Shown piece after piece: positions 22,647 through 56,654 of a stretch of 64,000 bases of DNA. The DNA is from Flavobacteriales bacterium 33_180_T64 (GTDB lineage: Bacteria; Bacteroidota; Bacteroidia; Flavobacteriales; Flavobacteriaceae). Position 1 is the first letter of the stretch. Each line of letters begins with the position of its first letter. Below the pieces are notes generated by a model. That model ran no database searches. It was not told the origin of the DNA and saw only the letters and a program-made list of their open reading frames with translations. Position numbers and translations under genes: made by a program. Location of the stretch: contig MAAQ01000008.1 of assembly GCA_002162685.1 (NCBI GenBank), positions 62,001 to 126,000 of the forward strand. The letters run 5' to 3'.

Positions 22647-23285
22647 TTAAAATGTGGTTACATTTGTGTTTGGTTGGTAAACATAATTGAACGTGAAATA
22701 TGGGGTTGCGTCTGTAAAGGCATCTGGATTTGCAGGTGCATTTTCGTAATAGCTTAAAATTTCAACTTTTGCATATAACCCATTACGTGTTTTAAATACC
22801 AATATTTTGCCTGGTATAGGTGTAATTAAATGTGTTGGAGGACCTGCATAAGTATACCATCCATTACCACTTCCACTAGGAATTGCATATCCTACATCAG
22901 AATCTTGTGTAAATAATGATGTATCAACATCAGTAACAGATCCTATTGTGCCATTAGCAATATAAACTCCAGCATCACCTGTTCGGTTTGGCTCATCTAT
23001 AGTTCCTAATGTTGTTCCTCCATTTATAATGATTGAAGTACCTCTAAAAGCAATATCCCAATCTGTATCACTTGTTGTTGTTTGACCAGTTGTAAAATCA
23101 AATTTTGTAAACTCGCCAGAGATAGGTTGACCTTGGCCTCCAGATTGTGGTGCATGTAAGTTAGAGATCGTTTCTGTCTCTATTTCTAATAAAGATGCTG
23201 TGTTGTCATCATCATTACTACAAGAATAGAAGCTTATACATAATAGTGTTGCTACTAATAATTGAATTGTTTTCATTGTTTTCAT
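22647..23285 (-). CDS. HmuY-like haem-binding lipoprotein
   Basis: A 212-residue lipoprotein with signal peptide ending in ISFYSC followed by SNDDD. The fold signature of HmuY is seen in GEFTKFDFTTGQ, the Trp-Asp pair SDTDWDIAFRGTSIIING and the later KILVFKTRNGLYAKVEILSYY. HmuY proteins of Bacteroidetes bind haem at the cell surface and pass it to a TonB receptor. The receptor gene lies 18 bases upstream in the same operon, which supports this role. The haem ligands cannot be identified by reading. Met1 or Met4 may be the start. Confidence 0.88.
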   Translation of the reverse strand: MKTMKTIQLLVATLLCISFYSCSNDDDNTASLLEIETETISNLHAPQSGGQGQPISGEFTKFDFTTGQTTTSDTDWDIAFRGTSIIINGGTTLGTIDEPNRTGDAGVYIANGTIGSVTDVDTSLFTQDSDVGYAIPSGSGNGWYTYAGPPTHLITPIPGKILVFKTRNGLYAKVEILSYYENAPANPDAFTDATPYFTFNYVYQPNTNVTTF

Positions 23286-23303
23286 TGTATTTGTGTTTAA
23301 GTA

Positions 23304-25388
23304 TTAAAATTGAATATTAAGTTTTCCGTATATAAGTCGTCCAGCAATATTGCTGATATTTTGTGTGTCTTTAAAATTGAAGATGTTATCAACTCCAAAG
23401 CCTAATTGATAGTTTTTATAAAATGTTTTGTTGATGGCAAAATCTATAATTGCATATCCATCTACGAAGTCATCATAAGTATCTAAATAACCATTTCCAT
23501 TAGAGTCTAATAAGCCATATTCACTACGGTATGTTGCTCTTATGTTAGCATCTAGCTTGTATTTAGGAATATTATAAAACACTTTTAGATTGGCCATATG
23601 GCGTGAACGATTATACAAGCCAAAATAATCGTCTTTATCTAGTTGAAAAGAAGGCGAACTGGGTGTTTCTCTGGCAAATACTTCACCATTTTTAAATGCC
23701 TTTTCGGCAGTTTTATCTTTAGCGTATAGTAATTGATATCCAGCAGATATTTTTAATTGATTATTAGGTTTCCAAGTAGAATTTAATTCTAATCCTTGTG
23801 TATAGACTTTATTGATGTTGTAATAGCTAAATACATTTTGACCATTTGTTTTATTGGCTATAATACGCGTATCAATTAAATCATCTATTGTATTTCTAAA
23901 TGCATTAATACTGAGTTTAATTGTTGAAGTTACTTTATAATCAGTTCCAATATTTACTGAAATAGAATTTTCAGGATTCAATTGGTTTTCAAATTCTGAA
24001 ATTGGAACAATGATATTTGCAATTTGACCTTGTGCTTCCAAATCAGGTATTGCCGTTGAAACAGCATTATAACCTAAAACAGTATATCCTACAGTAGCAT
24101 TGGTAAAGTCGAAATATAATTGTCTGAAATCGGGTGCTTTATACCCATAACCCACAGAGCCTTTAAGTGCTAATTTCTCAGTTAACTCATATCTTAAAGC
24201 AGCTTTTGGACTAAATTGTGATTTGTACTTACTATGATTATCAAATCGAGTACCTAATAAAATATTTAATTTTTCAGTTGGATTGCCATCATATTGAAGA
24301 TATATATATGGCGAATTAAAAACAGGCTCTTTACTAAAATCGGTTCGCTTTAGAGTTTCGTGAGTGACTCCAATTCCTGCTATAAAATTGTTATTGCTAT
24401 TTAGATTATAAGTTGTTCTAAATTCAGGTTTAATCAATAATTGATTAAAGAGACTATTGCTAAAACGTGATCCATTAATTTCATTGAGGTATTCTTTAGC
24501 TTTATAGCGTGATGCATAAAACTCTAAATAACTGTTCCATTTTTTATTATGTCTATGTTTTAATTGTATGTGTGAGTTCCATTCGTTGATATCACTTTCT
24601 CCTTTAAGAGTTTCTGTAGCTACTACATCTTGATTTTGAGTGTAATATCTTCCAGAGATAAATAGGTTAGTATCATCTGAAAAATTATAAGTAAACGTTG
24701 TATTAAAGGTGTAATTACTAAAAGGATCTACTGTATTTAGATTGTCGTTTTCGTTTAGATCATAACCATTGCTACTATATCTATTAATAAAAGTATTAAT
24801 GCCAAATTTGTTTTTTTTATAATTGACTGCTGCACTTAAATCATTAGTATTAAAGCTTCCAAGTCTATTATTAATACGACCATTAAATCCTATTTGAGGT
24901 TTTTCAATTATAATATTGATAACACCACCAAGAGCTTCACTTCCATATAAGCTTGAAGAAGCTCCTTTTACAATTTCTATTTGTTTGATGTTACTAACTG
25001 TAATTCGACTTAGATCTAATGTTCCAGCTGAACGACCAATTAAAGGAACTCCATTAACAAGAATTAATGTATGTTGAGAGTCTAAACCTTGTAATTGAAT
25101 CCCTTCGCCACCACCAAAATCTGGTATAGTAATTAAACCTGTTTGCTCGTTTAATATGTCACTTAACCGAATTGAATTAGAGCGTTTTAAGTCTTTTTTA
25201 CTTACAATTTGTACAGGCAAGGGGAGTGATGATAATTGGCGTATTGTGCGTGTTGCTGTAATGATAACTTCATTTAAGTTTTCTGTTTTTGTAGAATCTT
25301 TCTTAATGGCTTTTGTTTCCTGAGAAAAAGTATATGTCAGAAAAAAAAATGCAAAATAAATGCTTAAATATTTTTTATTTAGACTCAT
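23304..25388 (-). CDS. TonB-dependent receptor, HmuR-type (haem/iron)
   Basis: A 694-residue outer-membrane receptor of complete length. A signal peptide ends near residue 22 (YTFSQ). The TonB box lies in LNEVIITATR, followed by the plug domain (PVQIVSKKDLKR, EGIQLQGLDSQHTLILVNGVPLIGR, EIVKGASSSLYGSEALGGVINII) and a 22-strand barrel ending in GRLIYGKLNIQF with the terminal Phe. It is the first gene of a leftward operon with the HmuY-like lipoprotein, so haem or haem-protein is the likely substrate. Its promoter overlaps the 23-bp dyad at 25418-25440, suggesting iron control. Confidence 0.93.
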   Translation of the reverse strand: MSLNKKYLSIYFAFFFLTYTFSQETKAIKKDSTKTENLNEVIITATRTIRQLSSLPLPVQIVSKKDLKRSNSIRLSDILNEQTGLITIPDFGGGEGIQLQGLDSQHTLILVNGVPLIGRSAGTLDLSRITVSNIKQIEIVKGASSSLYGSEALGGVINIIIEKPQIGFNGRINNRLGSFNTNDLSAAVNYKKNKFGINTFINRYSSNGYDLNENDNLNTVDPFSNYTFNTTFTYNFSDDTNLFISGRYYTQNQDVVATETLKGESDINEWNSHIQLKHRHNKKWNSYLEFYASRYKAKEYLNEINGSRFSNSLFNQLLIKPEFRTTYNLNSNNNFIAGIGVTHETLKRTDFSKEPVFNSPYIYLQYDGNPTEKLNILLGTRFDNHSKYKSQFSPKAALRYELTEKLALKGSVGYGYKAPDFRQLYFDFTNATVGYTVLGYNAVSTAIPDLEAQGQIANIIVPISEFENQLNPENSISVNIGTDYKVTSTIKLSINAFRNTIDDLIDTRIIANKTNGQNVFSYYNINKVYTQGLELNSTWKPNNQLKISAGYQLLYAKDKTAEKAFKNGEVFARETPSSPSFQLDKDDYFGLYNRSRHMANLKVFYNIPKYKLDANIRATYRSEYGLLDSNGNGYLDTYDDFVDGYAIIDFAINKTFYKNYQLGFGVDNIFNFKDTQNISNIAGRLIYGKLNIQF

Positions 25389-25405
25389 TCTTAATTAATT
25401 TGCTG

Positions 25406-25440
25406 CAAATATATAAGTTATTTTAATTCAATCTAAATAA
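25406..25440 (-). promoter_or_regulatory. Receptor promoter with 23-bp dyad, shared by two divergent operons
   Basis: On the minus strand a -7 box TATATTTG lies at 25413-25406. Upstream of it, 25418-25440 is a 23-bp dyad with left arm TTATTTTAA and right arm TCTAAATAA around a 5-base centre. Two other sites of the same length and arms lie at 30963-30985 and 31036-31058. The position covers the -33 region of the receptor promoter and is 41 bases upstream of the rightward DUF6607 start. Binding by an iron-responsive repressor is inferred. Confidence 0.65.
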
Positions 25441-25480
25441 GAATAAACTTTTTTAAAAAAAATAATTTCAATTAATTATC

Positions 25481-26386
25481 ATGAAAAAAAATCTAGTATT
25501 TCCATTAATTTTTTTAGCATTTTCATTTGTAATAAATGCTCAAAGCAAAAAAAAACAAGATCAAAATGCCATAAAAGAAATGTGTGGTTGTTTTGAAGTT
25601 ACCTTCAATTTTGCAGAGACTTTTTCTTATAACCAAGACTCGCTTTATAAACCCTCAAAAACAAAAACAGACAAAGGGTTAGAGTGGGCGCAATTAGTAG
25701 TAGATGAAAAGAATAAAATTTCTATTCAACATTTATTACAAGTAGGGAATCCATCAGATCCATACATTGTTAAGCATTGGCGTCAAGATTGGTTGTATGA
25801 GAATGTCGATTTTTACATGTTTAATGGAGATAATTCTTGGGGTTTTGAAAATAAACCACAAAAAGATATTGATGGCCAATGGACTCAAAAAGTATATCAA
25901 GTAGATGATAGTCCGCGTTATGAAGGTTCGGCAACTTGGGTTCATGTAGATGGAAAAAGCTTTTGGGAAAATACAACAACAGCACCATTACCAAGACGAG
26001 AATACACCAAGCGAAGTGATTATAATGTTACTCTAAGAGGAAACCGACATGAGATTGTAAATGGCGGTTGGGTTCATGATCAGGATAATGCTAAGATTGT
26101 AAGAGAGCAAGGTGTTGAAGATGTGATTATAGCTAAGGAAAAAGGTTATAATACGTATAAAAAAGTAGCCAATAGTCGTTGCCAAGGAGCAATTGATTGG
26201 TGGAGTAAACATCACGAAAAATGGGCTGTTGTTAGAGCAAAATGGGATGAGGTTTATTTGAGAAATCAAGACTTATTATTAGAGACTAAAGTTGATAACA
26301 AATTACTTTATAAGTATTTGTTTGCAGAAGAAATGACAGATGAGACAGCAATTAATACAGTTATAGAGTCTTTTGTAAAAAAGTAA
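25481..26386 (+). CDS. Exported DUF6607-like protein of the iron locus
   Basis: A 301-residue protein with a signal peptide ending at VINAQ. The mature part starts with a conserved Cys pair (MCGCFEVTFNFAETF) and is rich in Trp and aromatic residues (WRQDWLYENVDFYMF, GQWTQKVYQVDDSPRYEGSATWVH). It resembles the Bacteroidetes family DUF6607, whose function is unknown. It is the first gene of a rightward operon running to 30960 with DUF2271 and the PepSY-flavoreductase gene, and it is divergent from the haem receptor. A periplasmic or outer-membrane role in iron or haem handling is inference from context. Confidence 0.7.
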   Translation: MKKNLVFPLIFLAFSFVINAQSKKKQDQNAIKEMCGCFEVTFNFAETFSYNQDSLYKPSKTKTDKGLEWAQLVVDEKNKISIQHLLQVGNPSDPYIVKHWRQDWLYENVDFYMFNGDNSWGFENKPQKDIDGQWTQKVYQVDDSPRYEGSATWVHVDGKSFWENTTTAPLPRREYTKRSDYNVTLRGNRHEIVNGGWVHDQDNAKIVREQGVEDVIIAKEKGYNTYKKVANSRCQGAIDWWSKHHEKWAVVRAKWDEVYLRNQDLLLETKVDNKLLYKYLFAEEMTDETAINTVIESFVKK

Positions 26387-26389
26387 ACT

Positions 26390-27892
26390 ATGAGAGTAAT
26401 TAAATATGTAATCGCTTTTTTTGTTTGTCTTATTTCGACATCCTTTTTTGCGCAAGAGTCTAATGTTTTTTTAGATAGAGCATTTTGGAAAGAGAACCCT
26501 TCAATAGAGACCATTCAAAAGCATATAAATTTAGGAAATGATCCTTCAGAGTTAAATCAACATGCTTTTGATGCGGTGTCATACGCTTTGTTAGAAAAAG
26601 TAGATAATGAAACGATACAGTTTTTGTTATTAAAACCAGGAAATGGAGTCAATAAAATTACTCACGATGGTAGAACTTATATTTTTTGGGCAGCTTATAA
26701 AGATAATCTTGAAATGATGGAATATCTAGTAAATAAAGGCGCAAAAACAGATATTATTGATAGTCATGGATATTCATTATTAAACTTCGCTGCAGTTACT
26801 GGGCAGTTAAATGCAAAACTGTATGATTTCTGTATTGAAAATGGTTCTAAGCTTTCCGAAGAAACAAATCACAATGGTGCAAATTCACTTTTATTACTAG
26901 CACCATTTATAAAAGAGATTAAAACTATAGACTATTTTATATCGAAAGGAATGGATATGAGAAGTACAGATAATAATGGGAATGGTATTTTTAACTATGC
27001 TACTAAAGGCGGTAATATAGATTTATTAAAAACATTAATTGCTAAAGATGTACCTCATAAAAGCTTAAATAAAAATGGAGGTAATACGATGTTATTTGCT
27101 AGTCAAGGTACACGACGTTATCAAAATACATTGGCCATGTACCAGTTTTTGGAAAGTTTAGGCGTTAAAGCCAATGTGACAACAAATAATAATGGTAGAA
27201 ACCCATTGCATGCTATTGCTTTTGAAAATGAAAATTTAGAAGTTTTTAATTTTTTTATTGAAAGGGGTGTTGATGTAAATCAACAGGATGAGAATGGAAA
27301 TTCTCCCTTTATGAATGCAGCGAATAGTAATAATTTAAGCGTTGTAAATTACCTTTCTACCTATGTAAAAAATATCAATTCAAAGACTAAAAATGGGCAT
27401 TCTGCATTAACAATGGCTGTGAATAGAAACTCAGTAGATGTTGTTAAATTTCTTTTAGAAAAAGGCGCAGATATTAAGGAGAAAGATGCCGAAGGGAATA
27501 CATTAGCCTATTATTTACTCAATACATTTAAAACAAATGCACCAGAAGTCTTTGAAGCGAAATTAAAATTATTAAAAACAAATGGGTTAGTTCTAAATAC
27601 AATTCAAAGTGATGGTAATACATTGATACATCTTGCCGTTCAAAAAAATAAGTTAGCCTTACTTAAAACTTTAAAGCCGTTTCATATAGATGTGAATGCA
27701 AAAAACAATGACGGTTTATCTGCATTGCAAATTGCTGCAATGAAATCTAAAACGAAAGCGATTTTAGAATATTTGATTTTAATTGGAGCCGATAAAATGG
27801 TGAAAACTGAGTTTGATGAGTCGGTATACGATTTGGCTAAAGAAAATGAATTACTGAAACTAAACAATATTGATATTAACTTTTTAAAATAA
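26390..27892 (+). CDS. Exported ankyrin-repeat protein
   Basis: A 500-residue protein with a signal peptide ending at SFFAQ. It is followed by about ten ankyrin-type repeats of 33-36 residues; clear units include DGRTYIFWAAYKDNLEMMEY, NGHSALTMAVNRNSVDVVKF and DGLSALQIAAMKSKTKAILEY. Ankyrin solenoids bind proteins; an exported one between DUF6607 and DUF2271 genes, 3 bases from the former and 4 from the latter, probably acts as a periplasmic scaffold of the iron locus. Its partners are unknown. Confidence 0.85.
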   Translation: MRVIKYVIAFFVCLISTSFFAQESNVFLDRAFWKENPSIETIQKHINLGNDPSELNQHAFDAVSYALLEKVDNETIQFLLLKPGNGVNKITHDGRTYIFWAAYKDNLEMMEYLVNKGAKTDIIDSHGYSLLNFAAVTGQLNAKLYDFCIENGSKLSEETNHNGANSLLLLAPFIKEIKTIDYFISKGMDMRSTDNNGNGIFNYATKGGNIDLLKTLIAKDVPHKSLNKNGGNTMLFASQGTRRYQNTLAMYQFLESLGVKANVTTNNNGRNPLHAIAFENENLEVFNFFIERGVDVNQQDENGNSPFMNAANSNNLSVVNYLSTYVKNINSKTKNGHSALTMAVNRNSVDVVKFLLEKGADIKEKDAEGNTLAYYLLNTFKTNAPEVFEAKLKLLKTNGLVLNTIQSDGNTLIHLAVQKNKLALLKTLKPFHIDVNAKNNDGLSALQIAAMKSKTKAILEYLILIGADKMVKTEFDESVYDLAKENELLKLNNIDINFLK

Positions 27893-27896
27893 GATA

Positions 27897-28391
27897 ATGA
27901 AACTTATAAGGATTTTTAAAATTGCTCCACTTTTTATTCTAGTGTCATGTGTTTTTTTAGGGTTTAAATTACAACCTGAAATATCAAAGTATAAATGTAT
28001 GATACAAATGAAAAACTATACAGGTGAAGGTGCCTATATTGTAATTTCACTTCTTAATCCAGAAGGGTTTTATGAAAAAACATTATATGTACAAGGTGAT
28101 GATGAAGAATGGTATTTTGATATTTATGAATGGTGGCAATTTCAAGGAAAAGTTCGTCATGATATTGATGCTATAACTGGAGCAACAATTAGTGGAGGAG
28201 CACGTGCAATTAGTATTATTGAAATTGAGAATATTAAACTAGATAAAGGCTATAAAATTAGATTTGAGTCTGCTGTAGAAGATCAAGACTATTTTAAAGA
28301 TGATGTAGAGTTTGAGTTGACTTCTGAAACTATAAAAAGTAAAATTGAAGGCAATGGATTTATACGTTACATACGTATGATACCACAGTAA
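27897..28391 (+). CDS. DUF2271 protein with flavinylation-like DAITGAT motif
   Basis: A 164-residue protein with an N-terminal hydrophobic segment (PLFILVSCVFLGF), probably a signal peptide or lipoprotein signal around Cys18. The DUF2271 body has YTGEGAYIVISLLNPEGFYEKTLYV and IYEWWQFQGKV. Residues 91-97 read DAITGAT, the form of the ApbE flavin-transfer site in FMN-binding domains, where Thr97 would carry FMN. DUF2271 genes often accompany PepSY reductases, and here the stop codon directly abuts the start of such a gene. Covalent flavinylation of this protein is inferred, not shown. Confidence 0.78.
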   Translation: MKLIRIFKIAPLFILVSCVFLGFKLQPEISKYKCMIQMKNYTGEGAYIVISLLNPEGFYEKTLYVQGDDEEWYFDIYEWWQFQGKVRHDIDAITGATISGGARAISIIEIENIKLDKGYKIRFESAVEDQDYFKDDVEFELTSETIKSKIEGNGFIRYIRMIPQ

Positions 28392-30596
28392 ATGAACAAC
28401 ATGACAATTTCTATATGGAGATTTAGTCATCTTATATTGGCTATAATATCTTCCGTTTTTATCATATTAGCATCGCTTACAGGTAGTATTCTAGCATTTG
28501 AACCGATAACTAATACATTAACATCTCAGCCTATTGACACTATTGAGAATGTGACTATTGCAGAAACAATAGCACATCTTGAAAGTAAATATGATGAGGT
28601 GCTTATGATTAAAAGAGATGAGAATGATTGTATTATAACATCTGTGATTACTTATAAAGGAGAAAGCGAGACATTTTATATCAATCCCATTTCAGGAGAA
28701 AAATTGGGCTATATTATTGAGAAAGCACCAATTTATAAGTTTGCTACTAATTTACATCGCTCTTTGTTTTTAAAATCTACAGGTCGTTTCATTATAGGCT
28801 TAGTCTCTTTCTTTTTGTTTTTAATAACGATTACAGGAATGCTTTTAATCGCTAAGAGGCAAGGGGGTTTAAAACGATTTTTCTCAAAAATTATAAAAGA
28901 AAATTTTGAACAATATTATCATGTTGTGATTGGACGTGTACTATTAATTCCAATCCTTATAATAGCTTTAACAGGTGTTTATTTATCGTTAGAAAAATTT
29001 TCTCTTTTACCAAACCAGGAAATAACTCATTTTATTCAAGAAGAAGAATTAAACATAGTTAAGATTCCAATTACAGAGTTTGATATTTTTAAAGCGGTTA
29101 AAATCTTAGATATTGAAAGTATTGAGTTCCCGTTTTCCGAAGATATAGAAGACTATTTTTATGTTAAACTAAAGGATAAAGAAATTATTATCAATCAATA
29201 TTCTGGTAATGTGGTTAGTGAAAAAAGGTATCCATTGGTACAAATTATGTCACATTGGAGTTTGATTTTACACACAGGAAGAGGTAATTTACTCTGGTCA
29301 ATAGTCTTACTTTTTGCATGCTTAGGGTTACTGTTTTTTATCTACTCTGGCTTTACGATGACTTTAAAACGCAGCCAAACGAAAGGAGTTATAAAGAATA
29401 AGTTTGATAAAGATGAGTCTGAATTTATAATCCTTGTAGGTTCAGAAACAGGAACCACTTATAATTTTGCAGTACTATTTTATAACGCTTTAATTTCAGA
29501 AGAAAAAAGGGTGCATATGATAGAGTTGAACAAGTATTCAACTTACAATAAAGCAAAACATATTGTTGTTTTTACAGCAACTTATGGTGAAGGTGAAGCG
29601 CCTGTAAATGCTAAAAAATTTGAAGCTTTACTTGATAGTACAATTCAAAATAATAATATGACTTATGCAGTCGTCGGTTTTGGGTCGTTGTTGTATCCAG
29701 CGTATTGTAAGTATGCCATTGTTGTTGATTCTCTTTTACAATTACATCAAAAATTTATTCCTAAACTACCATTATATAAAATTAATAACCAATCATTTGA
29801 AGCCTTTTCGAATTGGTCTAAACTATGGAGCAATGACCTCGGATTTGATATACACATTAAAATGCCAACGTTAAAATCGACGCAAGCGCATATTGAAACT
29901 TTTGAAGTTAAAAGTAGTACTAAATTAAATTGTGATAATTCTTTCCTATTAGAATTAAAACCACAAAAAAAAGTAAAATTTAAATCGGGCGATTTATTAT
30001 CAGTCAAATTAAAAGAAAATGAAGCCGCTCGAATATATTCAATAGGAAAAAAGGATGGAAATATTCTATTGAGTATAAAAAGGCATGAGCAAGGTTTATG
30101 CTCAAATTATCTCAATAATCTCAATAAAAATGATAAGATTAAAGCCTCAATTCAGCAAAATAAAAGTTTTCGGTTTCCGTCTAATGCTAAAGCTGTGGTG
30201 ATGATTGCAAATGGAACAGGAATTGCCCCATTCCTAGGAATGATTAATGAAAATAAAAAACGAAAAAACATCCATTTATTTTGGGGAGGACGCACAAAAG
30301 CATCATTTGATATGTATGAAGAAGTCATATATAAAGCTTTTGATCTTAGCTATTTAAAAGAAATACGTATTGCGTATTCACAGGAACAAGAACATAGGTA
30401 TGTACAGAATCTTGTTCGTCAAGACACCTGTTTTATAGCGAAGCATTTAAAAGACGAAGGTGTTATTATGATCTGTGGCTCTATTGCGATGCAAAATCAA
30501 GTGTTAGAGACATTGCACCATATTTCAATGTCAATACTCAATGTGCCTTTGAGTGTATTTGAAAGTAAAGAACAAATAAAAATGGATTGCTATTAA
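28392..30596 (+). CDS. PepSY membrane protein fused to flavodoxin and ferredoxin-reductase domains
   Basis: A 734-residue electron-transfer protein. Residues 1-330 form a PepSY-associated membrane part with four hydrophobic helices (about 12-32, 135-155, 180-200, 300-325) and an extracytoplasmic PepSY region. Residues about 340-490 are flavodoxin-like (LVGSETGTTYNFAVLF, VVFTATYGEGEAP). The remainder is a sulfite-reductase or P450-reductase-type FAD/NAD(P) module (ARIYSIGKKDGNILLSIKR, VVMIANGTGIAPFLGMI, VIMICGSIAMQNQVLE). It should move electrons from NAD(P)H via FAD and FMN through the membrane, probably for ferric iron or haem reduction. Start and upstream stop are adjacent. Confidence 0.88.
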   Translation: MNNMTISIWRFSHLILAIISSVFIILASLTGSILAFEPITNTLTSQPIDTIENVTIAETIAHLESKYDEVLMIKRDENDCIITSVITYKGESETFYINPISGEKLGYIIEKAPIYKFATNLHRSLFLKSTGRFIIGLVSFFLFLITITGMLLIAKRQGGLKRFFSKIIKENFEQYYHVVIGRVLLIPILIIALTGVYLSLEKFSLLPNQEITHFIQEEELNIVKIPITEFDIFKAVKILDIESIEFPFSEDIEDYFYVKLKDKEIIINQYSGNVVSEKRYPLVQIMSHWSLILHTGRGNLLWSIVLLFACLGLLFFIYSGFTMTLKRSQTKGVIKNKFDKDESEFIILVGSETGTTYNFAVLFYNALISEEKRVHMIELNKYSTYNKAKHIVVFTATYGEGEAPVNAKKFEALLDSTIQNNNMTYAVVGFGSLLYPAYCKYAIVVDSLLQLHQKFIPKLPLYKINNQSFEAFSNWSKLWSNDLGFDIHIKMPTLKSTQAHIETFEVKSSTKLNCDNSFLLELKPQKKVKFKSGDLLSVKLKENEAARIYSIGKKDGNILLSIKRHEQGLCSNYLNNLNKNDKIKASIQQNKSFRFPSNAKAVVMIANGTGIAPFLGMINENKKRKNIHLFWGGRTKASFDMYEEVIYKAFDLSYLKEIRIAYSQEQEHRYVQNLVRQDTCFIAKHLKDEGVIMICGSIAMQNQVLETLHHISMSILNVPLSVFESKEQIKMDCY

Positions 30597-30606
30597 AAAT
30601 AAATAT

Positions 30607-30960
30607 ATGTGTCATAATATAAGAACGATATCAATAGTAAAAAGTGGTGAACTCTCTATTTGTGAAAATTGTAATGTATATCATCTAGAGTTTAATAATA
30701 TCTATTTTGAATTCACTATTCAACAATTTAAACAGTTTAAAGACTATCTAGACGCCATCGAAATTGGGTTTTGGGAACGGAAATATACCTGCTCTAAGAT
30801 GAAACGAAAAATACCAATTCCATCAATACAAAACAACCTAGTGTTAATGTTTAATAGGCAGGAAATCAAAGAATTACAGTGTTTATTTTCTTTAGATGCA
30901 AATAGCAGCACTAAGCTTTTGCTGCTTAGTGAAATTGACTATACATTAATCGTTAATTAA
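30607..30960 (+). CDS. Small DUF6686-like protein
   Basis: A 117-residue protein without signal peptide. It begins MCHNIRTISIVKSGELSICENCNVYHLEFNN in spirit: an early Cys-His pair and a CxxC (CENC), a possible zinc or iron-sulfur site, then FTIQQFKQFKDYL. It resembles the small Bacteroidetes family DUF6686, which is commonly found beside iron genes in Flavobacteria, a point I recall and cannot test here. It is the last gene of the rightward operon. A cytoplasmic accessory or sensor role is a guess. Confidence 0.6.
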   Translation: MCHNIRTISIVKSGELSICENCNVYHLEFNNIYFEFTIQQFKQFKDYLDAIEIGFWERKYTCSKMKRKIPIPSIQNNLVLMFNRQEIKELQCLFSLDANSSTKLLLLSEIDYTLIVN

Positions 30961-30962
30961 AT

Positions 30963-31058
30963 TTATTTAAATTTAATCTAAATAAACTTTGGAGATGTTA
31001 ATTAGTAACTTATTTTTGCACTCGAATTACAGATATTATTTGTAATAAGTCTAAATAA
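30963..31058 (+). promoter_or_regulatory. Porin promoter flanked by two 23-bp dyads
   Basis: TTTG at 30988-30991 and the -7 box TATTTTTG at 31011-31018 have 19 bases between them. A 23-bp dyad at 30963-30985 (arms TTATTTAAA and TCTAAATAA) ends two bases before the -33 element. A second at 31036-31058 (arms TTATTTGTA and TCTAAATAA) lies in the early transcribed region. Two sites around one promoter suggest strong or looping repression. ATTACA and TGTAAT at 31026-31031 and 31041-31046 form a further small stem. Confidence 0.7.
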
Positions 31059-31115
31059 AAACAATTAATAACAAAAGTAAATTCGCAGATAGCGAAAATT
31101 TAAAAGCGTATTACC

Positions 31116-32276
31116 ATGAATAAAAAATTATTAGCCCTTATAATTACTTTGTCAGTTGCATTTACCTATGCTCAAACTGTACCAGATTCTTTATATACAA
31201 ATCCTCAAAATCAACAAAATGCAGCTCAACGTATTTTGTCAGGAAATATTAATACAGGAGTTACTGTTGGAGGTTATGGAGAAATTACATACAATCAACC
31301 AGAAGCAGATAATGGCGAGTTAGATGTGCAGCGTTTGGTATTACTTTTTGGTTATAAGTTTAATGATAAAGTACAATTTATTACTGAAGTAGAATTAGAA
31401 CATGTTGAAGAAGTTTTTGTTGAACAAGCATTTATTCAGTATAGCTTAAATGATAATGTTAATCTTCGAGGAGGTTTAATGTTAGTACCTATGGGAATTG
31501 TTAACGAATATCACGAACCTACTACATTTAATGGTGTAGAAAGACCAAGTGTTGATGGAAGTATTGTTCCTTCAACATGGAGAGAAATTGGTTTTGGTGT
31601 TTCTGGACGTTTTGATAATGCTTCATTAAGATACCAGGCTTATGTATTCAACGGTTTTTCATCAGTAAATGGATCTAAAGTTTTAGGCGGAAAAAACGGA
31701 TTGAGAAATGGAAGACAAAAAGGAATCCGTTCTACAGTAGATTCTCCAAATCTAGCGGCTAAATTAGATTACTACGGAATTAAAGGATTACGTTTAGGGT
31801 TATCTGGATATTTTGGTCGTACTCAAGCTGAAGATGATATAGAAGATATTGATGGAACTTCTGTAGGAATCTCTATGCTTGGTTTTGATGCGCGATATGC
31901 ATATCAACGTTTTACTGCACGTGGACAATTTATTCATGCAAGTATCAGCGATAGTGAAGATTATAATACTTTAAATTCTGCAGATTTAGGTAGTGCTTTA
32001 CAAGGGTATTATGTTGAAGCTGCTTATAATTTATTACCACTAGCTAAGGAGCAACAATTATATGCTTTTGCTAGATATGAAGATTTTGATACACATGCAT
32101 CAGTTGATGGTGGATTAATGAAAAATGATAGCTACGATCGTAATGAATGGACCTTTGGTTTGAGTTATAAAATTGCTCCTGGAGCAGTTGTAAAAGCTGA
32201 TTACCAAATTAAAGATAATGAGACAGATGCTGATGTGCCTAATCAATTAAATGTTGGTTTAGGAGTTTGGTTCTAA
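31116..32276 (+). CDS. Outer-membrane porin (OprP/phosphate-selective-like)
   Basis: A 386-residue barrel protein with signal peptide ending at FTYAQ. It has the porin pattern VTVGGYGEITYNQ near the start, then LDVQRLVLLFGYKFNDKVQFITEVELEHVEEVFVEQAFIQY, GGLMLVPMGIVNEYHEPTTFNGVERP, and ends in NVGLGVWF with terminal Phe. The ion or solute is unknown; within this locus, passage of iron chelates or anions is plausible. Its promoter is bracketed by two 23-bp dyads, so it is probably the most tightly controlled gene of the set. A perfect 16-bp-stem terminator follows. Confidence 0.85.
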   Translation: MNKKLLALIITLSVAFTYAQTVPDSLYTNPQNQQNAAQRILSGNINTGVTVGGYGEITYNQPEADNGELDVQRLVLLFGYKFNDKVQFITEVELEHVEEVFVEQAFIQYSLNDNVNLRGGLMLVPMGIVNEYHEPTTFNGVERPSVDGSIVPSTWREIGFGVSGRFDNASLRYQAYVFNGFSSVNGSKVLGGKNGLRNGRQKGIRSTVDSPNLAAKLDYYGIKGLRLGLSGYFGRTQAEDDIEDIDGTSVGISMLGFDARYAYQRFTARGQFIHASISDSEDYNTLNSADLGSALQGYYVEAAYNLLPLAKEQQLYAFARYEDFDTHASVDGGLMKNDSYDRNEWTFGLSYKIAPGAVVKADYQIKDNETDADVPNQLNVGLGVWF

Positions 32277-32305
32277 AACTATTTTGAATATAATTTATCC
32301 TATAC

Positions 32306-32341
32306 TTAGCCAATTAAGAATATATATTCTTAATTGGCTAA
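32306..32341. terminator. 36-bp palindrome after the porin gene
   Basis: Perfect 16-bp arms at 32306-32321 and 32326-32341 (core TTAGCCAATTAAG) flank ATAT, making the full 36 bp palindromic. The T run after it is weak (TAGGGTTTT). The right arm contains the TTG of the next promoter. Confidence 0.8.
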
Positions 32342-32365
32342 TAGGGTTTTAAAAGCTTACTTTTG
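32335..32365 (+). promoter_or_regulatory. Promoter of the FMN-binding protein gene
   Basis: TTG at 32335-32337 and TACTTTTG at 32358-32365 are 20 bases apart. The ATG follows 4 bases after the -7 box, pointing to a leaderless mRNA. The TTG lies in the terminator palindrome of the porin gene. Confidence 0.65.
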
Positions 32366-32369
32366 TAAT

Positions 32370-32897
32370 ATGAAATTTATGCACGTTTTATTGGTATGTT
32401 TATCACTTTTATTTGTGAGTTCTCAATTGCCTAAAAACATTCTAAAAAAAGTTGATAAAGAAATAAAGAATACTTATAATGTTGAAGAATTTGTTTTAGA
32501 AGCTAAGGTTTTTGAAACTGAAATTGTAAAACATCTTCCTTCTAAATTTGGTGCAAATAATTTTTTTAAAATTAAAAAAGATACCACATTATTAGGATAC
32601 GCTTATGTTTCAAAAGCGGCTAGCAAAACAGATCAATTTGACTATTTAATTTTACTAAATAAAGATTTAGTAATTGAAAAAGCTAAAGTCCTTATTTATA
32701 GAGAAAATTATGGAGGAGAAATTGGTAGTAAACGTTGGTTGAAACAATTTGTTGGGAAAACTCCTAAAGACGAACTTAAATATATGCAAAATATTGCTGC
32801 TATTTCAGGAGCAACAATCTCAGTTAGATCTCTAACAACAGCTATAAATGATTTATTAAGATCTTTACAAACTCTTCAAACAAAAAATAGTCTATAA
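32370..32897 (+). CDS. FMN-binding domain protein (SGAT flavinylation motif)
   Basis: A 175-residue protein. ATG 32370 is chosen because it gives a signal peptide (MHVLLVCLSLLFVSSQ) and follows the promoter; the longer frame from 32334 includes the palindrome. The FMN-binding domain has LLGYAYVSKAASKTDQFDYLILLNKDLVIEKAKVL and NYGGEIGSKRWLKQFVGK, then AAISGATIS, in which Thr149 of SGAT is the predicted FMN ester site made by ApbE. The usual Asp at the start of this motif is Ala. It likely carries electrons in the periplasm, possibly from the PepSY reductase. The stop shares TAATG with the next gene. Confidence 0.85.
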   Translation: MKFMHVLLVCLSLLFVSSQLPKNILKKVDKEIKNTYNVEEFVLEAKVFETEIVKHLPSKFGANNFFKIKKDTTLLGYAYVSKAASKTDQFDYLILLNKDLVIEKAKVLIYRENYGGEIGSKRWLKQFVGKTPKDELKYMQNIAAISGATISVRSLTTAINDLLRSLQTLQTKNSL

Positions 32898-33403
32898 TGC
32901 AACTTAATGGAATGCTTTCTACGTTTCCTAAAGAGATAAAAATGTTGATAACAGCATTTATTATCGTATTGAGTATTGGGTTTTATACAGGCTTATTGTT
33001 TGTTAGTGAAACATCTTCGGTTCACCCTAACGGTATTGAAGAACAATATTTAGGGAACGAAGCTGATGAAGATGCTTTAATAATGAAATTTAAAAAAAGC
33101 GAACAAGAAATGCTAACACTTGTTCATGGTCATATTTTATCGATGTCAATTATTTTCTTTTTGGTAGGTGTAATTTTATGTACAACAAAACTTCCCCAAA
33201 AAATAAAAATAATATTAATAGTAGAACCGTTTGCTTCGGTTTTGTTCACTTTTGGAGGGCTCTATTTTCTATGGAAAAATATACTGTGGATGAAGTATAT
33301 TGTCATGATTTCTGGAAGCTTAATGACGCTGTCTTTTACAATTTCTGTTGTAGTAATCCTTTATCAATTATTTGTACCTAGGAAGATCGTTCAGTATAAA
33401 TAA
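32897..33403 (+). CDS. Four-helix inner-membrane protein coupled to the FMN-binding gene
   Basis: A 168-residue protein with four hydrophobic helices (about residues 16-35, 76-93, 101-122 and 130-155) and a periplasmic acidic loop after helix 1. A His occurs in LVHGHILSMS at the start of helix 2, where a metal or haem ligand could sit, though this is speculative. I do not recognise a named family. The start overlaps the stop of the FMN-binding gene (TAATG), so the two are translated together, and the product may be the membrane partner of the flavoprotein. Confidence 0.7.
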   Translation: MQLNGMLSTFPKEIKMLITAFIIVLSIGFYTGLLFVSETSSVHPNGIEEQYLGNEADEDALIMKFKKSEQEMLTLVHGHILSMSIIFFLVGVILCTTKLPQKIKIILIVEPFASVLFTFGGLYFLWKNILWMKYIVMISGSLMTLSFTISVVVILYQLFVPRKIVQYK

Positions 33404-33428
33404 CTATCTTCGTATAAAACAGATTACT

Positions 33429-33935
33429 ATGAATGCAGCTATTGAAAAATTACTAAATAATCAAATCAAATACGAAGCTCAAGCTTCTATGCAATATTTG
33501 GCTATGGCTTCTTGGGCTGATGCTAAAGGATATAATGGTGTAGCAGATTTTTTTTATAGCCAATCAGAAGAAGAACGTGTTCACATGACAAAACTGGTTA
33601 AGTTTGTTAATGAAAGAAGTGGACATGTTATTATTCCTGAATTAGATAAATCTAAACATGATTTTAATACTCTTAACGAACTTTTTGAAACCTTTTTAAA
33701 AAGCGAAATGTTTGTTACAGAACAAATTAACCATGTTATTTATGAATGCTTAAAGCATAAAGACTATAATGTTCATAATTTTATGCAATGGTATGTCACC
33801 GAGCAACTTGAAGAAGAAGCCATGGCGAGAACGTTATTAGATAAGCTAAATATTATTGGTACAGATAAATCAGGACACTATTTGTTTGATCGTGATATAA
33901 ATGCAATTGCAGCGTCTCAGAATAAAACACAATAA
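33429..33935 (+). CDS. Bacterial ferritin
   Basis: A 168-residue non-haem ferritin. The start at ATG 33429 begins the standard helix 1 (AIEKLLNNQIKYEAQASMQYLAMASW); an upstream extension to 33372 would add residues inside the previous gene. Ferroxidase ligands fit Glu in KYEAQ, Glu and His in SEEERVHMTKL, and Glu/Gln in the FVTEQINHV and YVTEQLEEE helices. Ferritin oxidises Fe2+ and stores it as ferric mineral in the cytoplasm, a logical end point for the iron locus. A possible -7 box variant TATCTTCG is at 33405-33412. A terminator follows at 33969. Confidence 0.95.
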   Translation: MNAAIEKLLNNQIKYEAQASMQYLAMASWADAKGYNGVADFFYSQSEEERVHMTKLVKFVNERSGHVIIPELDKSKHDFNTLNELFETFLKSEMFVTEQINHVIYECLKHKDYNVHNFMQWYVTEQLEEEAMARTLLDKLNIIGTDKSGHYLFDRDINAIAASQNKTQ

Positions 33936-34005: not shown

Positions 34006-34030
34006 CGTTTATTTAGAATAAATTAAAATA

Positions 34031-34174
34031 ATGAAAGCAGAATTAACTATCGATTCTTTTCCAATTATAATCACATCTTGTATTATCTATTGCGATATTG
34101 ACAAGAAGAAAAAGTGTTGTAAAAAGTTTAAAAAGAAAGGGAAGATAAATTGTAAACGCTGCCCAAGGATTTAA
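34031..34174 (+). CDS. 47-residue Cys- and Lys-rich small protein
   Basis: The ORF starts MKAELTIDSFPIIITSC and ends in a highly basic tail with KKKKCCKKFKKKGK and CKRCPRI. It has 6 Cys and about 16 Lys/Arg in 47 residues, with Cys at 17, 21, 29, 30, 41 and 44. A -7 box lies 25 bases upstream and the ferritin terminator isolates it from the left. I do not recognise a family; small Flavobacteria proteins with a similar basic Cys tail are a vague recollection. It could bind nucleic acid, metal or a membrane. Coding status rests on composition, start codon and promoter. Confidence 0.55.
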   Translation: MKAELTIDSFPIIITSCIIYCDIDKKKKCCKKFKKKGKINCKRCPRI

Positions 34175-48958: not shown

Positions 48959-50095
48959 ATGCGAATAGATTATGAAAAACGAATTTTCGGCTTAGATCTT
49001 ATGCGAGCTATTGCTGTTGTTATGGTTGTGTGTTCGCATACGCTTTGGATTGTTCCAGATATGAGAGGTGTCATTCGAAGGGTGTTTAGCATCTACGGAG
49101 TTTTGGGTGTAGATATCTTTTTTGTATTGAGCGGATTTTTAATTGGAAGGATTTTATACAATATGTATGTTTCTAAAGTATTTAGTTTTAAGGATGTTAG
49201 CTATTTCTGGATTAGAAGATGGTTTAGGACTTTACCTAATTATTATTTAGCGTTAGTATTAAATATTTTAGTGGCCATATATATAGGTAATCAGTTGCCA
49301 GAAGCACTATGGAAGTATGGTTTTTTTCTACATAATTTTAGCACTCAGTTGCCTTGGTTCTTTCCAGAATCGTGGAGCTTGTCTGTAGAAGAGTTCGCTT
49401 ACATTATTGGACCTTTTTTACTTTATATGGTTTTGTTTTTGAAAAGGAAAGTGTCTAGGTCGCGTTTATTTTTAGAGGTGACACTTTTTATCTTGCTATT
49501 TTTCTGCATAACAAAATTGTGGTACAATCACGAAGAGACCATTCGTCATATAAGGTATTGGTCACTTAATGTGAAATCTATTGTAATATATAGAATTGAT
49601 GCTATTTATTATGGTGTTTTGGCAGCATACATTTCGATCGTTATGCCAAAATTTTGGTATAAGATTAGGTATTTAGCTTGTGCAATAGGTATTTTGACCT
49701 TGATTGGAATGAATCTTCTAATTCCGATAAAAAAATGGTATATAGAAACATATCCAGGCTTCTGGAATGTATGGTATTTTTTAATTAAATCTTCTGCTAT
49801 TGTTTGTGTTCTACCGTTGTTAAGCCAGATGAAATCTGCTCCAAAACTAATTAGGATTCCAATAACTTATATTAGTATTTTATCTTATGCTATCTATGTA
49901 TTGCATTATTCCATAATTATGCAACTCATGAAATATTTTATTCCTTCAGAGCAAATGGCAGGTTTAGATATTGTCATTTATATCTTGGTTTATGTACTCA
50001 TAACCTTTTTGGCTTCTTATATAATGTATCGTATTTTTGAAAGACCAATGACCAATCTTCGAGATTCAAATAGAATTAAGAATCATTTTAAATAA
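48959..50095 (+). CDS. Acyltransferase-3 (OafA/NodX type) membrane protein
   Basis: A 378-residue protein with about ten transmembrane helices. The family start is clear: RIFGLDLMRAIAVVMVVCSHTLWIVP with the catalytic His, then GVDIFFVLSGFLIGRIL, the Arg motif WIRRWFRTLPNYYLALV and ESWSLSVEEFAYIIGPFLLY. These enzymes acetylate or otherwise acylate sugars of surface polysaccharides. No glycosyltransferase genes are adjacent, so the acceptor is unknown. It is divergent from the anchored unknown protein, only 38 bases away. Confidence 0.92.
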   Translation: MRIDYEKRIFGLDLMRAIAVVMVVCSHTLWIVPDMRGVIRRVFSIYGVLGVDIFFVLSGFLIGRILYNMYVSKVFSFKDVSYFWIRRWFRTLPNYYLALVLNILVAIYIGNQLPEALWKYGFFLHNFSTQLPWFFPESWSLSVEEFAYIIGPFLLYMVLFLKRKVSRSRLFLEVTLFILLFFCITKLWYNHEETIRHIRYWSLNVKSIVIYRIDAIYYGVLAAYISIVMPKFWYKIRYLACAIGILTLIGMNLLIPIKKWYIETYPGFWNVWYFLIKSSAIVCVLPLLSQMKSAPKLIRIPITYISILSYAIYVLHYSIIMQLMKYFIPSEQMAGLDIVIYILVYVLITFLASYIMYRIFERPMTNLRDSNRIKNHFK

Positions 50096-56240: not shown

Positions 56241-56654
56241 TTATATGTTGCATTTATCACAAGTCCCTTTTATTAGCATATTTATATTTTCTGGAAGATA
56301 ATTATCTGGAAGGTTTATTTGTGGGATTTGATGTTCTGTTAAACAAACGGTCTTTCCACATTTATTACAATGAAAATGTAAATGCAAATCATTGTGTTTT
56401 TCAGAATGATATTCGTGTTTACATAAAGCATATTTTGGAACTCCCGTACCATCATCAATTTGATGTGCCAATCCTTTTTCTTCAAAGGTTTTTAAGGTTC
56501 TATATAAAGTGATTCGATCTGACTTTTCAAAATGATTTTCTACAGCAGTTAAACTTACTGTTGAATTTTGTGAGGATATATATTGGTATACTAACATACG
56601 CATAGCTGTAGGTCTTATGCCATAGTCTTGTAATTGTTTCTCTATTGTTTTCAT
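56241..56654 (-). CDS. Fur-family metal regulator of the efflux operon
   Basis: A 137-residue protein. The winged helix is MLVYQYISSQNSTVSLTAVENHF plus RITLYRTLKTFEEKGLAHQI. The dimerisation domain has His-rich metal ligands (CKHEYHSEKHNDLHLHFHCNKCGKTVCL) and two CxxC pairs (CNKC, CDKC near the end), as in the Zur/Fur group. It is the last gene of the heavy-metal efflux operon, 6 bases after the adaptor gene, so it is probably the local sensor of the exported metal, perhaps zinc or copper. Confidence 0.92.
   Translation of the reverse strand: MKTIEKQLQDYGIRPTAMRMLVYQYISSQNSTVSLTAVENHFEKSDRITLYRTLKTFEEKGLAHQIDDGTGVPKYALCKHEYHSEKHNDLHLHFHCNKCGKTVCLTEHQIPQINLPDNYLPENINMLIKGTCDKCNI

Follow-up and report, generated by a model that had tools for sequence, protein, structure and literature searches.

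The window analysed here is a 64,000-nucleotide stretch of DNA from Flavobacteriales bacterium 33_180_T64 (positions 62,001 to 126,000 of contig MAAQ01000008.1), whose genome measures 3.75 Mb at a completeness of 99.64%. Between window positions 22647 and 33935 lie eleven genes, which a preceding interpretation made from the letters alone (hereafter the sequence-only reading) had joined into one locus of haem-iron capture, flavin-driven reduction and storage. All eleven open reading frames (ORFs) were confirmed in place, with two starts that probably lie later than the listed TTG codons, at the ATG at 32370 for an FMN-binding protein and at the ATG at 33429 for a ferritin. Pfam agreed with the domain calls for HmuY, the TonB receptor, DUF6607, Ank, DUF2271, DUF6686, FMN_bind and ferritin, and it assigned PepSY_TM, Flavodoxin_1 and FAD_binding_6/NAD_binding_1 to a fusion protein; the Porin_O_P match of a porin-like protein is weak (7.2e-6), and a 168-aa membrane protein fell into no Pfam family. 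The close spacing held as well, with gaps of 3, 4, 0 and 10 nt between the consecutive DUF6607, ankyrin, DUF2271, PepSY and DUF6686 genes, 155 nt from DUF6686 to the porin gene, a one-base overlap between the FMN-binding and 168-aa genes, and 92 bp between the divergent receptor and DUF6607 genes. What did not stand is the unity of the locus. Judged by conservation in relatives, this is a pair of adjacent, separately conserved operons, each with Fur boxes at its promoter, and not one unit: module A spans 22647-30960, and module B comprises the porin, the FMN-binding protein, the 168-aa membrane protein and sometimes the ferritin. We consider it fairly probable that module A is a Fur-repressed RhuA-RhuR/RhuH-type haem-iron locus extended by an inner-membrane reductase cassette, where regulation and haem binding would follow from homology and reduction would be the task of the added genes.

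The capture half of module A begins with a HmuY-family surface lipoprotein in the position of RhuA (22647-23285, reverse strand; Pfam HmuY, 36.8 bits against a cut-off of 27), whose Cys22 is invariant in the 18 sequences of its class, the window protein counted. Next to it, in the position of RhuR, lies a TonB-dependent receptor (23304-25388, reverse strand; Pfam Plug and TonB_dep_Rec), and divergent from both is the DUF6607 gene (25481-26386, forward strand), to which the sequence-only reading had given no described role. That statement is outdated. When the DUF6607 protein was compared with the PDB by phmmer, a single match was returned over residues 2-299, namely 8xjc, an entry named as a haemophore (E=6.6e-87). 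An AlphaFold2 model built on 47 sequences (pLDDT 90.9) superimposes on 8xjc with TM scores of 0.86/0.93 and 49% identity in the structural alignment to RhuH. Moreover, H99, R146, Y147, R173, R186 and Q201 are invariant in 47/47 sequences and are the equivalents of the six haem contacts of RhuH, of which His96 is described as the haem-iron ligand, its replacement in H96A costing about six orders of magnitude of affinity, and R143, Y144, R170, R183 and Q198 as residues that touch the propionates in a model made with AlphaFold3 (PMC11967795). The same source gives RhuH a haem dissociation constant of 3.44e-11 M, and RhuH has been described as unique. By this evidence the DUF6607 protein belongs to the RhuH haemophore family, and its predicted haem capture rests on that homology. 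A literature search of a limited collection returned no paper containing the word DUF6607. The model also gave much weaker matches to nitrobindins, which are small haem barrels (4ymy, 2a13, 2fr2; TM 0.58 by target length, E 3e-4).

The arrangement of these genes is likewise that of the RhuH/RhuR-RhuA system of Riemerella anatipestifer, in which a haemophore gene of the same family, rhuH, is transcribed away from rhuR-rhuA, the genes of a TonB receptor and of an outer-membrane protein that binds haem, and a Fur box lies in the 122-bp promoter between them (PMC11967795). The two systems differ in what comes behind the haemophore gene, which in the window is followed by the ankyrin, DUF2271 and PepSY-flavodoxin-FNR genes; the words "DUF" and "PepSY" do not occur in the main text of that paper (counts 0 and 0), and the sections of it considered here name no partner of RhuH beyond RhuA and RhuR. 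HmuY-type genes are present in 41 of 47 DUF6607 loci. The hmu operon of Bacteroides and Porphyromonas also combines a lipoprotein of the HmuY type and a TonB-dependent haem receptor. To this operon (HmuYRSTUV; the HmuY-HmuR pair is also named in PMC11967795) the window bears a likeness in these two components, but the genome lacks a PF02514 HmuS protein and no ATP-binding cassette (ABC) transporter gene is found among the eleven.

The second half of module A is what we refer to as the cassette. It opens with an ankyrin-repeat protein (26390-27892, forward strand; Pfam Ank families) that appears to be exported, as judged by eye from its N-terminus, and continues with a DUF2271 protein (27897-28391, forward strand; Pfam 1.2e-37), a predicted flavinylated periplasmic electron carrier, and a fusion of PepSY_TM, flavodoxin and FAD/NAD(P)H reductase domains (28392-30596, forward strand; Pfam), a predicted transmembrane reductase. 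The DUF2271 motif DAITGAT conforms to the [S/T]GA[S/T] acceptor pattern; its Asp91 and the acceptor Thr97, the last T of the motif, are invariant in 93 sequences, in some of which GA is replaced by GE. Flavinylation of DUF2271 by ApbE has been shown elsewhere (PMC8238504), and two ApbE genes are present in the genome, both outside the locus. In the PepSY fusion, H13, H122, H177 and H294 are invariant in 87 sequences, which would fit four membrane histidines holding two haems. A profile of its membrane half found 7abw, the structure of FoxB (a protein named in PMC11334425), as its sole match (E=0.0022), and H122 is the only one of the four histidines inside the aligned stretch; the cytosolic half most resembles flavoproteins of the P450- and sulfite-reductase types. 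Collectively, the invariant residues of the DUF2271 and PepSY proteins fit a predicted redox chain. The fusion ends in Asp-Cys-Tyr (window 30585-30593), also invariant in the 87 sequences. An optional companion, DUF6686 (30607-30960, forward strand; Pfam 4.7e-44), closes the module; it is present in 11/47 family loci and 20/80 named loci, and a family of about 120 aa with a DUF6686-like outline is seen in 10/47 loci (for example L060:15102-15464). A DUF6686-like ORF of about 120 aa, with no Pfam family at E 0.01, also directly follows the cassette in locus L281.

PepSY and DUF2271 proteins have been tied to iron repeatedly (PMC8238504, PMC7190382, PMC12004947, PMC11334425), and the flavinylated iron-reductase clusters described in PMC8238504, in Alteromonas (PMC7190382) and in Caulobacter (PMC12004947) share with the window the DUF2271 acceptor motif, a neighbouring PepSY gene, nearby TonB receptors and a link to Fur. 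The window differs from them in that a single chain joins its PepSY domain with flavodoxin and FNR, DUF4198 is missing among the eleven genes while an ankyrin gene is present, ApbE is encoded elsewhere and the whole is coupled to a haemophore. The component parts are of known kinds, and what is new is the combination of the haemophore with a re-usable ankyrin-DUF2271-PepSY/FNR cassette.

This combination is not a peculiarity of the window. We surveyed 120 genomes of the family, of which 48 have DUF6607 and 44 have DUF2271 over its cut-off. The two co-occur in 34 genomes (Fisher p=2e-10), at no more than 6 kb from each other in 29 of them, which bears out the linkage in relatives that the sequence-only reading had set as its own test. 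The 47 DUF6607 loci compared (one genome, G015, was left out for its short contig, and several of the loci end early at contig ends) contain the receptor in 42 cases, DUF2271 in 29, the PepSY fusion in 28 and the ankyrin gene in 26. A second set consisted of 80 named loci, the best 80 of 583 confirmed and hence biased toward close relatives, the nearest of whose DUF6607 proteins belong to members of the Flavobacteriaceae, Kordia, Winogradskyella and Psychroserpens among them, in a comparison that may miss very close records; within 8 kb these loci have the receptor in 74, HmuY in 72, DUF2271 in 70, PepSY in 68 and ankyrin in 66, and ankyrin is the gene next after DUF6607 in 61 of the 80. Two of our row sets, A2 and A3, omit 2 of 34 and 2 of 28 rows, respectively, and ankyrin export and the lipoprotein character of proteins in relatives were judged by eye from the sequence.

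The cassette also occurs away from the haemophore. We examined 17 such loci: those of the ten DUF2271 genomes that lack DUF6607, and seven further copies that other genomes carry. In eight of them ankyrin and DUF2271 come after another kind of TonB receptor (803-808 aa) and a lipoprotein (424-463 aa), with the PepSY fusion in seven of the eight; five have the cassette with no receptor; two lack ankyrin and have DUF2271-PepSY next to genes of the HTTM type (L282 by Pfam, together with an imelysin gene, and L291 by eye); and one has DUF2271 alone. In locus L290 (G110:C12) we saw by eye a DUF2271 match inside a frame of about 520 aa, a small PepSY-like ORF adjoining it and a FeoB-like gene a few kb away. 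A Fur box is found ahead of 13/13 receptor-led or stand-alone cassettes, scoring 14 to 17 of 18, the weakest at p=0.04 against mononucleotide shuffles. Since the cassette is re-used at other-receptor and stand-alone loci, where, as in the Rhu-type loci, the ankyrin gene lies directly upstream of DUF2271, the ankyrin gene is associated with DUF2271 and PepSY, with which it travels, rather than with the haemophore; a search of a limited literature collection found no paper naming both ankyrin and DUF2271. In trees of the cassette, Rhu-type and other-receptor labels are more clustered than in shuffles, and stand-alone labels are not; a clean split by partner was rejected, neither the Rhu-type nor the other-receptor sequences forming a single group in either tree.

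Such re-use suggests that the cassette is an exchangeable device by which iron is freed from captured molecules. It can also be read as the mark of a general ferric or xenosiderophore reductase, with haem entering the cytoplasm intact and being degraded there, so that the two halves of module A would share a regulator and a neighbourhood only. The eight loci behind another receptor and the five with no receptor speak for that explanation, as does the description of XusC of Bacteroides as a PepSY siderophore reductase that acts after import by XusAB (PMC13142918). One of the eight lipoproteins matches DUF4374, the XusB family, over the cut-off (L289); a second does so weakly (E 0.0016) and six belong to no relevant family, which led us to reject the eight as Xus systems, and the DUF4374 lipoprotein and one of the six unmatched ones gave no useful alignment. 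The XusABC set as such, a surface lipoprotein, a TonB receptor and a PepSY inner-membrane reductase, recurs in the window, but there the lipoprotein is of the HmuY family, the locus has no DUF4374 XusB and the cargo would be a different one; the passages of PMC13142918 on XusC name no ankyrin or DUF2271 partner. Against a general reductase stand the 29 of 44 DUF2271-positive genomes in which the gene lies within 6 kb of DUF6607, as well as the failure to find a haem-type FecCD permease or a PF01126 or PF02514 enzyme in the genome (see below). We give this explanation some weight while considering it rather unlikely.

Regulation provides a further line of evidence for module A as a Fur-controlled haem-iron locus. 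The window was scanned for dyads with the pattern TTATTTAGA-N5-TCTAAATAA (18 scored positions), and all five sites in its 64 kb that score at least 16/18 fall in the locus. Box 1 (25375-25397, 16/18), which overlaps the first codons of the receptor gene, and box 2 (25418-25440, 16/18) occupy the divergent promoter of module A; box 3 (30963-30985, 17/18) and box 4 (31036-31058, 16/18) occupy the promoter of module B; and box 5 (34009-34031, 16/18) lies directly before a 47-aa Cys-rich ORF behind the ferritin gene. The shared 23-bp dyads that had been remarked on before are real: the window holds six sites of at least 15/18, whereas 50 dinucleotide shuffles gave 0.48 on average and never more than 3. 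The exact string TTATTTN8TCTAAATAA has four copies in the 3.75-Mb genome, each of them in the locus, and as it was derived from the locus sites only its scarcity elsewhere counts as new information. A looser dyad (24 bases, at most 3 mismatches) occurs 45 times in the window versus 30.7 expected, a slight excess that 3/100 shuffles also reach.

The boxes are conserved in relatives. A box (p<0.05 against shuffles) is found in the 150 bp before DUF6607 in 41/47 loci, often in the form of a pair spaced by about 44 bp, and before the porin gene in 19 of the 20 loci fetched (from 44 genomes with the 168-aa protein), 16 of them with a pair 71-73 bp apart, the contig of the twentieth ending there. 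The strict 19-mer ATTTAGANTNATTCTNAAT gave 18 rows in 14 of 60 family genomes versus 3 rows for its reversed control. Such paired boxes offer a usable regulon marker for the family. Elsewhere in the window's own genome, a 17-base core with at most one mismatch picked out five further sites, of which one is intergenic between hemA and an AraC-type gene, one precedes aconitase, one precedes feoA-feoB and two lie within coding sequence. The hemA site, between hemA and the divergent AraC-type regulator gene (L128, G000:C16:55808), is an exact copy of the core. The site before the aconitase gene (50073-50095) scores 14/18, with one mismatch to the 17-mer; aconitase drops under iron restriction in Riemerella (PMC5609570).

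The locus dyads match a Fur box published for Flavobacteriales, ATTTAGAATTATTCTAAAT of R. anatipestifer, where Fur binding was observed by electrophoretic mobility shift assay, the hmuR promoter included, and where iron restriction gave ratios of 6.7 to 7.9 for HmuY, its receptor and a neighbouring gene (PMC5609570). This supports the part of the sequence-only reading that joins haem capture to inner-membrane flavin redox, the two being placed here under one iron-type operator. The dyads are probably Fur boxes, and by homology Fur would repress the two modules in this bacterium. The genome encodes two PF01475 proteins, one of them strong (93.8 bits); the second, weak one (33 bits; window 56316-56621, reverse strand) is possibly PerR- or Zur-like. 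The dyad also resembles the rhizobial ICE box. An Irr-type operator was nevertheless rejected, given the match to the published Fur box and the scores of the strongest Fur-family protein, which are higher for Fur than for Irr models, all below cut-off. A target read by eye as sdhC was likewise dropped when Pfam returned nothing for it at 1e-5. Sigma-70 promoter-like sites are fewer than in shuffles (69 vs 89.3), and a TAnnTTTG element lies at 31011, between boxes 3 and 4.

Module B is conserved by itself. It begins with the porin-like outer-membrane protein (31116-32276, forward strand; Porin_O_P 7.2e-6), followed by an RnfG-like FMN-binding protein (32370-32897, forward strand; FMN_bind 1.6e-6; RnfG model 6.2e-6, below cut-off) and the 168-aa membrane protein (32897-33403, forward strand). 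The latter is present in 44/120 family genomes, and in the 30 loci returned for it the FMN-binding gene is directly upstream in 30/30, the porin gene upstream of that in 28/30 and IMPDH downstream in 23/30. The commonest order is HMGL - porin - FMN-binding - 168-aa - IMPDH, and in the window module A is inserted between HMGL and the porin gene. Modules A and B adjoin in only 3/47 family loci, the window included, and in 3/80 named loci, and the presence of DUF6607 and that of the 168-aa protein are independent across the 120 genomes (15 shared genomes, p=0.56; the test took 42 strong matches of the 44 genomes). This independence, together with a ferritin that is optional (5/30), speaks against a single eleven-gene pathway, which we rejected, and of the sequence-only reading's one capture-reduction-storage locus there stand the outline of module A and, by homology, its regulation. 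Module B would then be a second, independent Fur-boxed electron-export operon.

The same data could be taken to mean that two Fur-boxed operons merely landed between an HMGL-type gene and guaB (IMPDH) and that neighbours do not cooperate at all. The usual order of module B (with or without ferritin before IMPDH), the finding that several named genomes have module A in this slot too and the statistical independence of the two modules all agree with this, but they apply between A and B and not within A, where DUF6607, ankyrin, DUF2271 and PepSY remain adjacent across many genera and surroundings. In addition, the FMN-binding gene of the module B family follows DUF6607 in place of the cassette in 5/47 loci, one of which (L068, genome G104) has the 168-aa gene too, directly after the haemophore and FMN-binding genes; in four of the five genomes no DUF2271 passes the cut-off. 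Mere neighbourhood seems to us quite unlikely as an explanation.

What the small proteins of module B would do can be outlined by analogy. In the FMN-binding protein, GATIS is invariant in 39/39 sequences. An Asp is expected before a flavinylation motif, and as it is found in only 15/39 sequences, with Ala in the window protein, flavinylation is uncertain here. The 168-aa protein has no Pfam match at E 0.1; its AlphaFold2 model shows four long helices (pLDDT 79.6), and H77 and H79, which form a His-x-His within one helix, are invariant in 34/34 sequences. No known fold could be assigned, the best PDB match being at E 1.3 and none under E 1. The commonest Pfam matches among 32 members of its family, at 5/32 each, were Claudin_2 (best 3e-4) and DUF2871 (best 0.011), the latter below its cut-off and a lead only; DUF4405 was not among the matches of these 32. 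A small His-bearing membrane protein beside an extracytosolic FMN protein recalls the flavin-associated membrane cytochromes FezC and DUF4405 (PMC11334425), and by this analogy the 168-aa protein is possibly a membrane cytochrome. It differs from them in the missing DUF4405 match, the lack of a consistent family and the absence of a PDB fold match under E 1 (FezC itself was not in the comparison). A perfect 36-base AT-rich palindrome lies between the porin and FMN-binding genes (32306-32341), with a TAnnTTTG element behind it at 32358; the pair might amount to a terminator plus another promoter driving the distal genes.

The best mechanism we can offer for module A, in which we place moderate confidence, is haem import followed by flavin-driven periplasmic reduction and entry of Fe(II) by FeoAB. 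Upon iron shortage, Fur would leave the paired boxes, and the HmuY-like lipoprotein and the RhuH-type haemophore would capture haem, which the TonB receptor would move into the periplasm. The PepSY fusion would draw electrons from cytosolic NAD(P)H via its FAD and flavodoxin domains and pass them across the membrane via haems held by its four invariant histidines to the covalent flavin of DUF2271, which would in turn reduce the imported iron complex. The ankyrin protein would dock cargo or import proteins onto the reductase, and Fe(II) would finally enter by FeoAB, whose genes are preceded by the one-mismatch Fur-box-like site mentioned above. The direction of electron flow, reduction as the iron-freeing step and the role of the ankyrin protein are parts of this scheme that we infer. 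There is a precedent for removal of iron with the ring left intact, since Bacteroides thetaiotaomicron turns haem into protoporphyrin IX (PMC10100974). The linkage of haemophore and cassette and the re-use of the latter supply a direct, testable candidate for the haem-iron release step in aerobic Bacteroidota that import haem, and they suggest roles for the ankyrin protein and for the four-helix membrane protein, the latter having no Pfam match over a cut-off.

The genome's remaining haem-handling repertoire is compatible with release outside the cytoplasm. Neither a haem oxygenase of the PF01126 type nor a HmuS-type chelatase (PF02514) was detected at E 0.001, in a search that did not include the HugZ, IsdG and HemS/ChuW-type families, and among the three FecCD matches in the genome we found no haem-type permease: two are neighbours in an ABC locus of the zinc/manganese type (the one of them that was scanned is ABC-3), and the third, best with the BtuC model but below cut-off, sits beside a DUF5074 lipoprotein and a receptor that is best with a B12 model, also below cut-off. 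A wider proposition would be that flavobacteria free haem iron reductively outside the cytoplasm, with no haem oxygenase, HmuS or haem permease, by interchangeable electron-export modules that plug into any outer-membrane piracy system, either exported ankyrin (as cargo adaptor)-DUF2271-PepSY or the FMN-binding protein with the 168-aa His-x-His cytochrome; we put it forward very tentatively and think it improbable in this general form.

Electrons might conceivably serve the hand-off of haem instead of iron release, in that reduction of ferric haem would loosen the grip of RhuH, the receptor or a periplasmic carrier. The affinity of RhuH hangs on haem-iron coordination, as the H96A replacement indicates, so a redox change could alter it (PMC11967795), and the five loci in which an FMN-binding gene replaces the cassette after DUF6607 would suit such a role. 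RhuH is, however, found in outer-membrane vesicles (PMC11967795), far from inner-membrane electrons, and some receptors that have the cassette at their side lack an adjoining RhuH gene, which makes this explanation very unlikely in our view.

Several observations weigh against periplasmic release of haem iron by a Fur-controlled module A, our preferred reading, and are best considered together. The HmuY-like protein has one weak PDB match (8b6a, E=0.027). The best NCBIfam models of the receptor are B12 and haemin receptors alike, far below cut-off, so that its ligand, for which we propose haem, is deduced from its neighbours. DUF2271 over the cut-off is missing from 14/48 DUF6607 genomes and DUF6607 from ten DUF2271 genomes; since each occurs without the other, haem uptake does not require the cassette. 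The absence of haem-degrading enzymes noted above extends no further than the families searched. With regard to regulation, 6/47 DUF6607 promoters have no significant box, and genome-wide counts of relaxed sites come close to their controls, both for 17-mers with at most two mismatches (253 vs 232) and for 23-mers with at most one (18 vs 13). A regulon beyond the best sites is for this reason not statistically supported, and we rejected the notion that all such dyads form one regulon.

Finally, the ferritin gene (33429-33935, forward strand; Pfam Ferritin 3.8e-34; PDB match to the ferritin 1krq, E=2.1e-35) is an optional member of module B, found no more than 1.5 kb away in 5/30 loci. Behind it, outside the gene list of the sequence-only reading, lies the 47-aa Cys-rich and Lys-rich ORF (34031-34174, forward strand), immediately preceded by Fur box 5 and a TAnnTTTG element. 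Comparable stretches follow ferritin in three other loci, L254, L047 and L089 (partial), the first two with a 15/18 box of their own and the third with none, and our guess is that the ORF could encode a factor for the release of ferritin iron, Bfd-like in role.

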